Positions 4,502 through 53,404 of a stretch of 56,676 nucleotides of DNA are shown here, piece by piece. Under the pieces are notes generated by a model. The model was not told the DNA's origin. It saw nothing but the letters and a program-made list of their open reading frames with translations, and ran no database searches. The position numbers and the translations under genes were made by a program. Position 1 is the first letter of the stretch; each line of letters opens with the position of its first letter. The DNA lies in NCBI RefSeq assembly GCF_943181405.1, contig NZ_CALPBY010000010.1:1-56676 (forward strand), written 5' to 3'. Source of the stretch: Cellulosimicrobium sp. Marseille-Q4280. GTDB taxonomy: Bacteria; Actinomycetota; Actinomycetes; Actinomycetales; Cellulomonadaceae.

Positions 4502-4574
<73 letters not shown>

Positions 4575-4635
4575 CCACTCTTCGACACTGGCCGACGCCC
4601 GGGATCCCGGGCTGCTGCTCGTGTCCTTCCCGCAT

Positions 4636-4708
<73 letters not shown>

Positions 4709-4728
4709 CCACCGCGGCAGCCGCCGCT

Positions 4729-13618: not shown

Positions 13619-14542
13619 GTGACGACCGAGACCTCCGCCCCCCGCGTCGCCCTCGCGACGTGCTCCGTCCTGCCCGACCTCGACGGCGACGACGCCCCGC
13701 TCGTCCGAGCGCTCGGCACCCGAGGCGTCGACGCGGCACCCGCGGTCTGGGACGACCCGGACGTCGACTGGGACGCCTTCGACGCGGTCGTCGTGCGCTC
13801 CACCTGGGACTACTCCGCCCGCCGCGACGAGTTCGTCGCCTGGGCCGCGCGCGTCCCGCGCATCCTCAACACCGAGCGCGTGCTGCGCTGGAACACCGAC
13901 AAGGGCTACCTGCGCGGGCTCGAGGAGGCGGGGGTCCCCGTCATCCCGACTCTCTGGCTCGACCCGGCGCGCAACCTCTCGTCGCGCGCGATCCACACGC
14001 GGCTGCCCGCGCAGGGCGACTTCGTCATCAAGCCCGTGGTCAGCGCGGGCGCCAAGGACACCGGGCGCTACCAGTCGGGCGAGGCGCACTCGCGCGGCCT
14101 CGCCATCCAGCACGCGAAGAACCTCCTCGTCTCCGGGCGCGAGGTCATGGTGCAGCCCTACGTGACGAGCGTCGACACCGCGGGGGAGACCGGCCTGGTC
14201 TTCGTCGACGGCGAGCTGTCGCACGCCGTGCGCAAGAACGCGCTCCTCACCGGGCCGCACCGCCCGACGCGCGGGCTGTACCAGCAGGAGGAGATGAGCC
14301 CGTTCACCGCGACCGACGAGCAGGTCGCCGTCGCGCAGAACGCCCTCGCGGTCGCCGCGGACGCGGTCGCCGACGGCGACGCGTCGTCCTTCCTCTACGC
14401 GCGCGTCGACCTCGTGAACGGCAACGACGGCGGGCCGGTCGTCATCGAGCTCGAGCTCACGGAGCCGTCGCTCTTCATGGCGCTCGCCCCCGGCGCCCTC
14501 GACCGCTTCGCCGACGCGATCGCGGCCCGCGTCCGCCGCTGA
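13619..14542 (+). CDS. ATP-grasp family ligase of unknown substrate
   Basis: A 307-residue protein with the ATP-grasp layout of glutathione-synthetase/RimK-like ligases, which join a carboxylate to an amine through an acylphosphate. Visible features: an N-terminal preATP-grasp region with VVRSTWDYSARRDEF, the central ATP-binding block GDFVIKPVVSAGAKDTGRY, VMVQPYV, and the metal-binding C-terminal YARVDLV..VIELELTEPSLF. Leaderless start at GTG 13619. No neighbouring pathway gene indicates its substrate. Confidence 0.85.
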   Translation: MTTETSAPRVALATCSVLPDLDGDDAPLVRALGTRGVDAAPAVWDDPDVDWDAFDAVVVRSTWDYSARRDEFVAWAARVPRILNTERVLRWNTDKGYLRGLEEAGVPVIPTLWLDPARNLSSRAIHTRLPAQGDFVIKPVVSAGAKDTGRYQSGEAHSRGLAIQHAKNLLVSGREVMVQPYVTSVDTAGETGLVFVDGELSHAVRKNALLTGPHRPTRGLYQQEEMSPFTATDEQVAVAQNALAVAADAVADGDASSFLYARVDLVNGNDGGPVVIELELTEPSLFMALAPGALDRFADAIAARVRR

Positions 14543-14580: not shown

Positions 14581-14690
14581 GGTGGGGTCGGGGGCCGACG
14601 ACGACGGGTCTACCATCCGCCGCCCTCGTCCCCCGGGCCGCTCCCCCCAGACCCGCCACGACCCGCTCGTCGTCGGCCCCCGCCCCCACC
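14581..14690. ncRNA. Candidate structured RNA or hairpin element, copy A
   Basis: Basal stem: 14589-14604 pairs perfectly with 14667-14682 (16 bp), extended after a 1x1 mismatch by GGTGGGG/CCCCACC (14581-14587, 14684-14690). The apical part starts CGGGTCTACCATCCG (14605-14619), then an inner hairpin (14619-14625 with 14635-14641, one C-C mismatch) with a 9-nt loop TCGTCCCCC, then CCAGACCCGCCACGACCCGC (14647-14666). The same apical sequence occurs in copy B with a different basal stem. CGGGTC can pair with either of two downstream copies of GACCCG. Strand is not determined. It lies 38 bp after the ATP-grasp stop; the rest of 14543-14871 shows nothing else. Confidence 0.55.
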
Positions 14691-14871: not shown

Positions 14872-15786
14872 TCAGGCCAGGTCGTTCTCCGCGAGCCAGT
14901 CGGCGGCGATGTCCTCGGTCGAGCGCTGGTCGACGGTCGACTGGACGTTGAGGTCGACGAGACCCTCCGGCGTGAGGGCGGCGCTCACGGGGTTGATGAC
15001 GTCCGCGATCTCGTCGGCGACGTCCGTGCTCACGAGCGGAACGACGTTCGACGCGAGGAACAGGCCCTCGGGGTCGTCGAGCGTGACGAGGCCCTCGGTC
15101 TGGATGCGCGGGTCGGCGCTGAAGACGTTGGCGACGTTGACCGTGCCGGCGACGAGGTCCTGGACCGTCGTGTCACCCGTCGCGACGAACGAGACGTCGA
15201 CGCCGTAGACGTCCTGCAGGCCCGTGGGTCCGTACGGGCGCTGCTCGAGCTCGGCGGGGCCACCGAGGGTGAGGTCGACGTCGAGGTCAGCCAGGTCGGC
15301 GAGGCTGCTCACGTCGTACTGCGACGCGAAGTCCTCCGTGACGTTGTACGAGTCCTGGTCGCTGGCCTCGGACTGGTCGAGGACCGTCAGGCCCTCGGGC
15401 AGCGCCTCCTGGAGCTCGGCGTAGACGTCCTCGGGCGAGGTCGCCGTCGTCTCCGGGTCGAAGAACTGCAGGAGGTTGCCCGTGTACTCGGGGAACAGCG
15501 TGACCTCGCCGTCCTCCAGAGCCGGCATGTACGCGTCGCGCTGGCCGATGCTGAAGTTGCGCTCGACCTCGAAGCCCTCGGCCTCGAGCGCCTGGGCGTA
15601 GATCTCGGCGATGATCTCGTTCGAGTAGTAGGCCTGGGAGCCGATGACGATCGTGTCGGAGGGGGCGGAGCCGCCTCCGTCGCCGGTGTCCTCGTCGAGC
15701 GGGTCGGAGCTGCTGCAGGCGCCGAGCGCGAGGGCTGCGGTCGCGGCGCCGGCGAGGAGGGCGAGGGTGCGGCGTGAGGTGCGCAT
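14872..15786 (-). CDS. Glycine betaine/osmoprotectant ABC transporter binding lipoprotein
   Basis: A 304-residue OpuAC/OsmF-like substrate-binding lipoprotein. Signal peptide with lipobox LALGAC (lipidated Cys near residue 24), an acidic linker, then the two-lobed domain with IVIGSQAYYSNEIIAEIYAQALEAEGF, LFPEYTGNLLQFF and the distal YGVDVSFVATGD/ADPRIQ blocks typical of betaine/choline binders. It is the last gene of the four-gene importer operon, 81 bp after the second permease, and delivers ligand to the membrane complex outside the cell. The exact osmolyte is not determined. Confidence 0.92.
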   Translation of the reverse strand: MRTSRRTLALLAGAATAALALGACSSSDPLDEDTGDGGGSAPSDTIVIGSQAYYSNEIIAEIYAQALEAEGFEVERNFSIGQRDAYMPALEDGEVTLFPEYTGNLLQFFDPETTATSPEDVYAELQEALPEGLTVLDQSEASDQDSYNVTEDFASQYDVSSLADLADLDVDLTLGGPAELEQRPYGPTGLQDVYGVDVSFVATGDTTVQDLVAGTVNVANVFSADPRIQTEGLVTLDDPEGLFLASNVVPLVSTDVADEIADVINPVSAALTPEGLVDLNVQSTVDQRSTEDIAADWLAENDLA

Positions 15787-18334: not shown

Positions 18335-18364
18335 GCAGGGCCCCTCGCGAACGAGGGGCCCTGC
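18335..18364 (-). terminator. Terminator downstream of tRNA-His
   Basis: A perfect 13-bp stem (GCAGGGCCCCTCG, 18335-18347, with 18352-18364) closed by a CGAA tetraloop, 7 bp beyond the tRNA-His 3' end on the minus strand. Confidence 0.8.
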
Positions 18365-46716: not shown

Positions 46717-48399
<1,683 letters not shown>

Positions 48400-48407
48400 T
48401 CGGTCCC

Positions 48408-48444
48408 GACGACGCCGGGCGGGTGCTTCCCGCCCGGCGTCGTC
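48408..48444 (+). terminator. Terminator of ettA
   Basis: A perfect 16-bp stem (GACGACGCCGGGCGGG, 48408-48423, with 48429-48444) and a TGCTT loop, 8 bp after the stop codon. Confidence 0.85.
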
Positions 48445-48477
48445 GTGCTGCGTGCGGCGTTCGGTGCGGCTACCTCC

Positions 48478-48584
48478 GCCCGGCGTCCACGACGGCGCGC
48501 GCGGGTCTACCATCCGGCCGCTCGTGCCTCGCGGCCTCCCGCCAGACCCGCCACGACCCGCGCGCGCCGTCGTTCCCGCCGGGC
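48478..48584. ncRNA. Candidate structured RNA or hairpin element, copy B
   Basis: Basal stem: ACGACGGCGCGCG (48489-48501) pairs perfectly with 48561-48573; after a TCC/TCC internal loop it extends with GCCCGGCG/CGCCGGGC (48478-48485, 48577-48584). The apex repeats copy A: CGGGTCTACCATCCG (48502-48516), an inner hairpin GGCCGC/GCGGCC (48516-48521, 48531-48536) with loop TCGTGCCTC, and CCAGACCCGCCACGACCCGC (48542-48561). Both stems differ from copy A in sequence yet remain paired. It lies beyond the ettA terminator and 190 bp before the next gene. Strand undetermined. Confidence 0.55.
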
Positions 48585-53373: not shown

Positions 53374-53404
53374 GCGGGCGGGCCGCCCGCTCCGGCCCGC
53401 CCGC
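53374..53404. terminator. Bidirectional terminator between thioesterase and GH9 genes
   Basis: A perfect 11-bp stem GCGGGCGGGCC/GGCCCGCCCGC with a 9-nt loop in the 47-bp gap between convergent stop codons. Confidence 0.7.

Follow-up and report, generated by a model that had tools for sequence, protein, structure and literature searches.

In the transporter operons of Escherichia coli, the stabilised gene is invariably the binding protein, according to the part drawn on here of an account of differential operon decay (PMC5927463). The hairpin family examined in this study is similar to the malE-malF-type structures presented in the same part (PMC5927463), as it forms a stable structure just behind the stop codon between the cistrons of operons, including between a binding protein and a permease. 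It differs from them in that its apex is shared over several families while the sequence of its stem is free. To our knowledge, the intercistronic structures of E. coli have no shared apex of this kind.

Three other described systems bear comparison. As with the REP/BIME sequences and their RAYT, described in the portions of two accounts used here (PMC2817692, PMC12306157), the element is dispersed, extragenic, palindromic and multi-copy, lies near gene ends and is present or absent at a given site depending on the species. In contrast to those sequences, its palindrome is not shared (the apex alone is common), its stems are longer, its tip is constant, and the Y1 domain (PF01797) was found in 0 of 12 genomes, nine of which carry the element, in a search that covered the Y1 family alone and was positive in 5 of 14 controls. 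Actinobacterial intrinsic and bidirectional terminators, as portrayed in part of a third account (PMC8269248), share with it a strong GC-rich hairpin in convergent gaps, and at one locus of this study (locus A) the element stands where relatives have a hairpin of this sort. However, it is longer than the terminators in that part of the account (PMC8269248), has a conserved internal loop, is common inside operons and nearly always lacks a T-tract. Finally, template switching in DNA replication, which copies one arm of a hairpin from the other, has been described for RNA hairpins (PMC8794818, in the part consulted), and the element likewise has long perfect stems whose sides change together, mostly without visible intermediates. 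While that part of the source (PMC8794818) reconstructs the histories of rRNA genes, the present case is a multi-copy dispersed element with such a pattern. A full-text literature search, covering titles and abstract openings and with subscription journals mostly outside its coverage, returned no description of the element, which is an addition to the known intercistronic and 3'-end hairpins; by two features it is not REP/RAYT, nor is it a T-tract terminator.

Two hairpins in one window

The window, which is the whole stretch of 56,676 nucleotides analysed here from Cellulosimicrobium sp. Marseille-Q4280, contains two copies of the hairpin, A and B (Table 1), at the positions given by the first-pass annotation, a reading of the letters made before this study. 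Folding agreed with that reading in finding the basal stems perfect over 16 bp in A and 13 bp in B, both resuming beyond a small internal loop, and the apex CGGGTCTACCATCCG ... TCGTnCCnC ... CCAGACCCGCCACGACCCG is indeed common to the two copies. It had also pointed out that CGGGTC can pair with either of two GACCCG partners; this is true of A and B, where minimum-energy folds pair CGGGTC with the first partner (AGACCCG) in A and with the second GACCCG in B, but does not extend to the family, many relatives having at least one partner altered. The suggestion that TACCAT resembles a -10 was not sustained, as these letters sit in the internal loop and are replaced by TACCGC or CCCACC in relatives.

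Table 1. Positions in the window of copies A and B, their parts and the hairpin in front of copy B
Feature	Positions	Strand	Details
Copy A, whole hairpin	14581..14690	+	convergent gap between genes 13619-14542 (+) and 14872-15786 (-)
Copy A, outer stem, 5' arm	14581..14604	+	16-bp perfect part CGGGGGCCGACGACGA, then 7 bp past a 1x1 mismatch
Copy A, CGGGTC, inner end of outer stem	14605..14610	+	partner GACCCG at 14650-14655 or 14660-14665
Copy A, conserved 5' internal-loop strand TACCATCC	14611..14618	+	following G likewise conserved
Copy A, variable inner hairpin	14619..14641	+	9-nt loop TCGTCCCCC at 14626-14634
Copy A, conserved 3' internal-loop strand TCCCCCCAGACCCGCCAC	14642..14659	+	
Copy A, outer stem, 3' arm	14660..14690	+	GACCCG, extra C at 14666, rest of arm
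Copy B, whole hairpin	48478..48584	+	between ABC-F-like gene 46717-48399 (+) and dynamin-like gene called from 48841 (+)
Copy B, outer stem, 5' arm	48478..48507	+	8 bp, 3x3 internal loop, 13 bp, CGGGTC
Copy B, conserved 5' internal-loop strand	48508..48515	+	
Copy B, inner hairpin	48516..48536	+	loop TCGTGCCTC
Copy B, conserved 3' internal-loop strand TCCCGCCAGACCCGCCAC	48537..48554	+	
Copy B, outer stem, 3' arm	48555..48584	+	
Plain 17-bp terminator-like hairpin	48407..48445	+	precedes copy B

The element was unmatched in Rfam, in agreement with the earlier remark that no RNA family with this pattern was known. At gathering scores, Rfam 15 identified only tRNAs in the window, among them a tRNA-Lys(CTT) pair (4502-4577 and 4636-4711) with equal Rfam scores and a spacing of 58 bp. 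A permissive search of 18 loci gave four matches, all far below the gathering score and none credible, with two on the minus strand of the element (L332 and L320), one overlapping its plus strand by 14 nt (L312) and a fourth, to cspA, located elsewhere. The window also holds plain long perfect hairpins between or behind genes at 53374-53404, 18335-18364 and 48407-48445, which the plain terminators of Cellulosimicrobium may resemble. A hairpin resembling the last of these stands behind the same gene in most related species, with or without the element.

Anatomy and pairing of the family

The family is much larger than two copies, and the first-pass description of a structured element with conserved loops and covarying stems was borne out; further copies, which that annotation had proposed to look for in relatives, were found in the genus and in other genera with their stems paired. 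From 5' to 3', the layout in 61 copies is outer stem, TACCATCCG, inner stem, a 9-nt loop TCGTTCCTC or similar, inner stem, CTCCCGCCAGRCCCRCCAC and outer stem. Common to the family is the asymmetric internal loop formed by TACCATCCG on the 5' side and CTCCCGCCAGRCCCRCCAC on the 3' side, while both stems vary in sequence yet stay Watson-Crick paired. The terminal loop is mostly 9 nt and is replaced in several relatives (L317, L324, L364), and the innermost CGG/CCG of the outer stem differs in wider family members. Beyond GTC/GAC, the outer stem has a median length of 26 bp in the genus (94 distinct arms) and 25.5 bp over 108 distinct arms including other genera. Two variants of the 3' internal-loop strand were observed, with a longer insert containing TTCGCAAGCTCACTACGGAGTCTCCCTCGG replacing or enlarging it in L036 and L054, and a shorter CGTCAT-containing form in L053, L059 and L080.

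Among the 61 distinct copies (from 70, with six cut or aberrant copies and three variants left out), standard pairs made up 92.5% of pair cells, compared to 66.8% after shuffling and 40-46% when the partner was slid, and 405 cells had changed on both sides compared to 122 in shuffles. Because this set was fetched via the exact 14-mer GGGTCTACCATCCG, that stretch is constant in it by design; among copies found with a covariance model it varies. An alignment of 46 sequences from many genera (A4), which was fitted to the model and is therefore biased towards structure, had 93.9% of its 1295 cells paired and 436 double-changed cells versus 129 when shuffled. It was built with a stricter cut-off than a previous alignment (A3), which was set aside because it held nine reverse-strand palindrome matches.

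Wobble pairs are scarce in all of these sets. Plus-strand G.U was found in 13 and A.C in 11 of the 1295 cells of A4. For the 13 innermost pairs in 124 of 134 genus copies (10 with a broken register were dropped), C.A and A.C together occurred 27 times versus five times for G.T and T.G, out of approximately 1600 cells from phylogenetically non-independent copies, and a smaller mixed set had minus-strand versus plus-strand wobble of 16 to 3. Wobble as an argument for one strand was given up, because the genus sets favour the minus strand and the wider set is even (11 to 13). In 108 comparisons of copies with matching neighbours, mostly from Cellulosimicrobium and not independent of one another, there were 218 double Watson-Crick changes, 138 single changes (six involving G.U) and 11 doubles of another kind. 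A plus-strand RNA helix under selection would be expected to tolerate G.U, yet G.U is nearly absent, which appears to fit template switching between the arms. Copying of one arm from the other may account for much of the covariation, and covariation alone is no proof of RNA function. The premise that structured RNA is recognised by its covarying stems needs a caveat here, since the pairing is almost purely Watson-Crick, as would be expected if template switching copied one arm from the other.

At one locus (L013; G000 C3 near 583700), short tandem repeats in one arm match those in the other and every unit retains the mismatch CTCC/CTCC, a symmetric growth that would be expected from expansion in one arm copied to the other. 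The plus-strand loops of the element are C-rich and its minus strand is purine-rich. Purine-rich unpaired stretches are common in many structured RNAs, and because the minus strand is like them in this respect, either strand may be the sensing one.

Copy number, distribution and site occupancy

The exact apex 15-mer CGGGTCTACCATCCG occurs 21 times in the window's genome, compared to 0 for its reversed control, and 17 of 17 Cellulosimicrobium genomes contain the 14-mer, with no match to its reversed control in any of them. Counted in the window by itself with as many as three mismatches allowed, the 14-mer showed no excess over chance (5 found versus 5.66 expected). Model R1 (E ≤ 0.01) returned 48 matches in the window's genome, corresponding to approximately 46 copies, as one match is the reverse strand of another and one falls below the reverse-strand level of 34.8 bits; two more, on the overlapping ends of contigs C5 and C8, are possibly a single copy. 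R1 also matched in 52 of 150 genomes and 11 of 25 genera of the family, while model R2 (E ≤ 1e-5) matched in 20 of 297 genomes and 14 of 95 genera of the order (including G177, which is 7% contaminated) and in 7 of 394 genomes of the class, four of them outside the order; the searches over 40 genomes had stricter filters, so these counts are lower bounds. G177 belongs to another family and has 12 matches, of which L336 and L353 are possibly not its own. Among the class-level copies outside the order, L363 and L364 have the full internal-loop letters and L361 and L362 have parts only. The matches listed by a separate scan include many species of Cellulosimicrobium, Luteimicrobium, and records labelled Sphaerisporangium cinnabarinum ATCC 31213.

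Several copies in the window's genome are situated at contig ends, within approximately 140 bp on C1, C5, C6 and C8, and on C3 a copy is truncated by the end itself. The ends of C5 and C8 overlap, with 195 of 202 positions identical, and look like neighbouring contigs broken at one hairpin. Contigs 6, 10, 13, 17 and 19 of C. cellulans MP1 also end inside or within approximately 140 bp of the hairpin, and such breaks are probably failures of sequencing or assembly in a strong hairpin. The idea that IS or rRNA ends stand behind the contig-end copies was dropped, as the C5/C8 overlap fits breakage at one hairpin.

Occupancy of the two loci differs among species. Locus A (the gap holding copy A) is occupied by the element in the window's genome, G012 and G014 (continuous match), and 11 of 12 readable element-free gaps instead have a plain hairpin of at least 12 bp (that of G003 being only 8 bp), with the gaps of approximately 3 kb in G004 and G005 outside this count. 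At locus B, where most species have a plain hairpin behind the ABC-F gene, the element was found within 420 nt only in the window's genome, G012, G014 and G016. Over 112 bp, copy B shares 98% identity with a second copy in the window's genome, the similarity ending near the hairpin base, and one identical 93-mer is present in 16 copies from three genomes (chosen for equal model score) whose flanks have diverged. These two patterns suggest that copying or conversion also acts on the hairpin as one unit in Cellulosimicrobium, where many copies resemble a spreading repeat and are less strictly oriented.

Many members of the 93-bp-identical subfamily (L141-L156; G004, G013, G008) have units similar to GAGGTAGA[AG]CC[GC]TGGT[CT]C before the element and the reverse complements behind it, a second palindromic repeat. 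GTAG-plus-palindrome units (GGTAGA[AG]CCGTGGTC) round one subfamily had suggested membership in REP/RAYT, which was dropped given the result for PF01797 (0 of 12 genomes).

Position relative to genes and possible roles

Genes were called by a purpose-written codon-usage script. Outside Cellulosimicrobium, the 71 loci analysed are every other-genus locus delivered by the model searches (best matches only), including L334 (34.0 bits) and L335 (32.9 bits), which score under the reverse-strand maximum of 34.8 and rest on position. At 50 of the 71 loci, a stop codon on the same strand precedes the element by at most 150 nt (5-130 nt, median approximately 30), although these represent 39 distinct upstream C-termini, eight of which are infB variants, and are not all independent. 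The remaining loci comprise two near an antisense stop only, 18 overlapping a called ORF and one with neither. Between tandem genes, 33 copies are co-directional and three antisense. Recurrent operon sites are infB|rbfA (several genera and the window's genome, L011) and nrdE|nrdF (other genera and Cellulosimicrobium, L206), and copies at the same operon site differ in their stems across several genera. Further sites are kdpA|kdpB (L139), the position behind ilvC (L320) and, by NCBIfam and Pfam matches below the cut-off, binding protein|permease (L138). The window's genome additionally has the element at gyrB|gyrA (L018), urtA|urtB (L006), mpa|dop (L012) and cimA|lplAB (L013), with some of the proteins at its sites being fragments cut by the locus that score under the cut-off. 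Site names derive from NCBIfam/Pfam for one scanned locus each and were extended to other genera via the same terminal sequences.

Inside the genus, where 173 Cellulosimicrobium copies collapse to 87 neighbourhoods, a plus-strand stop codon lies within 150 nt in 49 of 87 (median 66), while 10 neighbourhoods have a minus-strand stop only, 19 have neither and nine overlap a called ORF. The most frequent gap class is convergent (31), followed by tandem gaps with both genes on the plus strand (22) or on the minus strand (19), then divergent (3) and incomplete (3), so that divergent gaps make up 3 of the 75 neighbourhoods with both neighbours called. The plus-strand gene is the nearer one in 27 of the 31 convergent gaps, and where two convergent genes have one copy each (L042-L044, L083), the two copies face inwards, each following the gene to which it belongs. 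A hairpin of at least 9 bp separates stop codon and element in only 3 of 68 cases, a set consisting mostly of Cellulosimicrobium, and four of the 108 distinct arms, or four of the 94 from the genus, have five or more T within 9 nt behind the stem. The orientation of the element is strict outside the genus and loose inside it. Outside the genus, the placement is that of a hairpin immediately after the stop codon of an operon gene and on the strand of that gene; inside it, the placement is mixed. The first-pass interpretation as structured RNA rather than a decayed repeat is accordingly upheld mainly by position outside the genus (50 of 71; 33 to 3) and more weakly inside it (49 of 87; 22 to 19). 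In L099 and L157 (G000 C6, start), an ORF is called over the element and GGTGGGTCGGTGGGCG-type repeats follow it; this element is possibly within or beside a repetitive coding region.

We slightly favour a reading in which the element is a cis-acting, co-transcribed 3'-UTR or intercistronic hairpin that would protect, or set the level of, the upstream message. It would be transcribed on the plus strand as the 3'-UTR or intercistronic part of the preceding gene, and its outer stem of 20-30 bp would block 3'-5' exonucleases, and perhaps also certain polymerases, a short way past the stop codon. The upstream cistron would then accumulate above the downstream one, as with the malE-malF structure of the E. 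coli malEFG operon. A putative factor would recognise the conserved asymmetric internal loop at the tip, while the arms would be free to change because it is mainly their pairing that matters, and they may change together through template switching in replication that copies one arm onto the other. In Cellulosimicrobium, the element would also have multiplied to approximately 46 copies, spreading and homogenising as a unit bounded by the hairpin base. A stabilising role is supported by position and strand outside the genus, by the rarity of the T-tract and by presence inside core operons, and the conserved apex would imply a reader. However, many Cellulosimicrobium copies may have no role in the preceding gene. 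That every genus copy has one is doubted because of the nearly balanced tandem gaps and the neighbourhoods with an antisense stop only, no nearby stop or an ORF overlap, and because copy B stands behind an existing terminator-like hairpin. Also weighing against a stabiliser are the 18 outside loci that overlap a called ORF, and are hence unplaced, and the rarity of G.U (13 of 1295 cells), which is odd for a helix selected only as RNA.

A more specific proposal, possible but doubtful in our judgement, is that the element is a regulatory RNA device thinly spread over the class, in which the constant loop TACCATCCG / CTCCCGCCAGRCCCRCCAC on disposable stems is read by a dedicated actinobacterial protein that sets the levels of adjacent cistrons in core operons (infB-rbfA, nrdE-nrdF, gyrB-gyrA), with the stems kept by DNA template switching and not by RNA selection. 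If this were true, a textbook covariation signal would arise largely by mutation.

Two other explanations, each of which we regard as unlikely when taken by itself, may both be partly true. The first is termination or attenuation of transcription by the hairpin, often in both directions where genes converge, which would need no T-tract and would take place either alone or with Rho. Rho prefers C-rich RNA, and the unpaired strands of the apex are similar. Convergent gaps are the largest class in the genus, and the convergent gap of locus A has a plain hairpin in 11 of the 12 genomes counted without the element, both of which favour termination, whereas so few stems are followed by five T that an intrinsic terminator is not what the sequences suggest. 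In addition, many copies lie within an operon, a short distance before the next gene on the same strand, such that full termination would silence rbfA or gyrA; a plain hairpin is already in front of the element at locus B; and a terminator would not need a conserved apex.

The second is that the element is selfish dispersed palindromic DNA (REP/MITE-like), with the hairpin recognised by a putative mobilising or recombining enzyme and the gene-end position reflecting tolerated insertions. This would account for the identical 93-mer with differing flanks, the near-identity of copy B to another copy with the similarity ending near the hairpin base, the presence of the element at loci A and B in some species only and the nearly neutral tandem orientation in the genus. 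It is less easily reconciled with the strict co-orientation outside the genus (33 to 3) and with the occupation of the same operon sites in several genera by different stems, and the result for PF01797, representing the Y1 transposase family only and found in 0 of 12 genomes, also counts against it.

A trans-acting small RNA derived from 3'-UTRs, whose C-rich loops (TCGTTCCTC, CTCCC) would pair with Shine-Dalgarno regions, is very improbable: small RNAs with C-rich loops do so elsewhere, and the loop letters are kept while the stems change in a multi-copy element co-oriented with genes outside the genus, but the copies lie between cistrons and are not free-standing units, and the 9-nt loop is replaced in the three relatives mentioned above. 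A CsrA target or sponge, suggested by GGA motifs on the minus-strand reading, was rejected because CsrA (PF02599) was not found in the one genome searched, that of the window (0 of 1), while the same search was positive in 3 of 14 controls.

With this element, the intercistronic and 3'-end hairpins gain a family whose stems are exchangeable and whose tip is constant and apparently recognised, recurring at the same core operons in genera whose copies differ in their stems. An actinobacterial factor that specifically binds the apex is predicted, and the family offers a route to the genes whose message ends may be tuned. Additionally, it offers a natural case in which very strong covariation may stem from template switching between the arms of a hairpin, a possibility that matters for every method taking covariation as proof of RNA structure.
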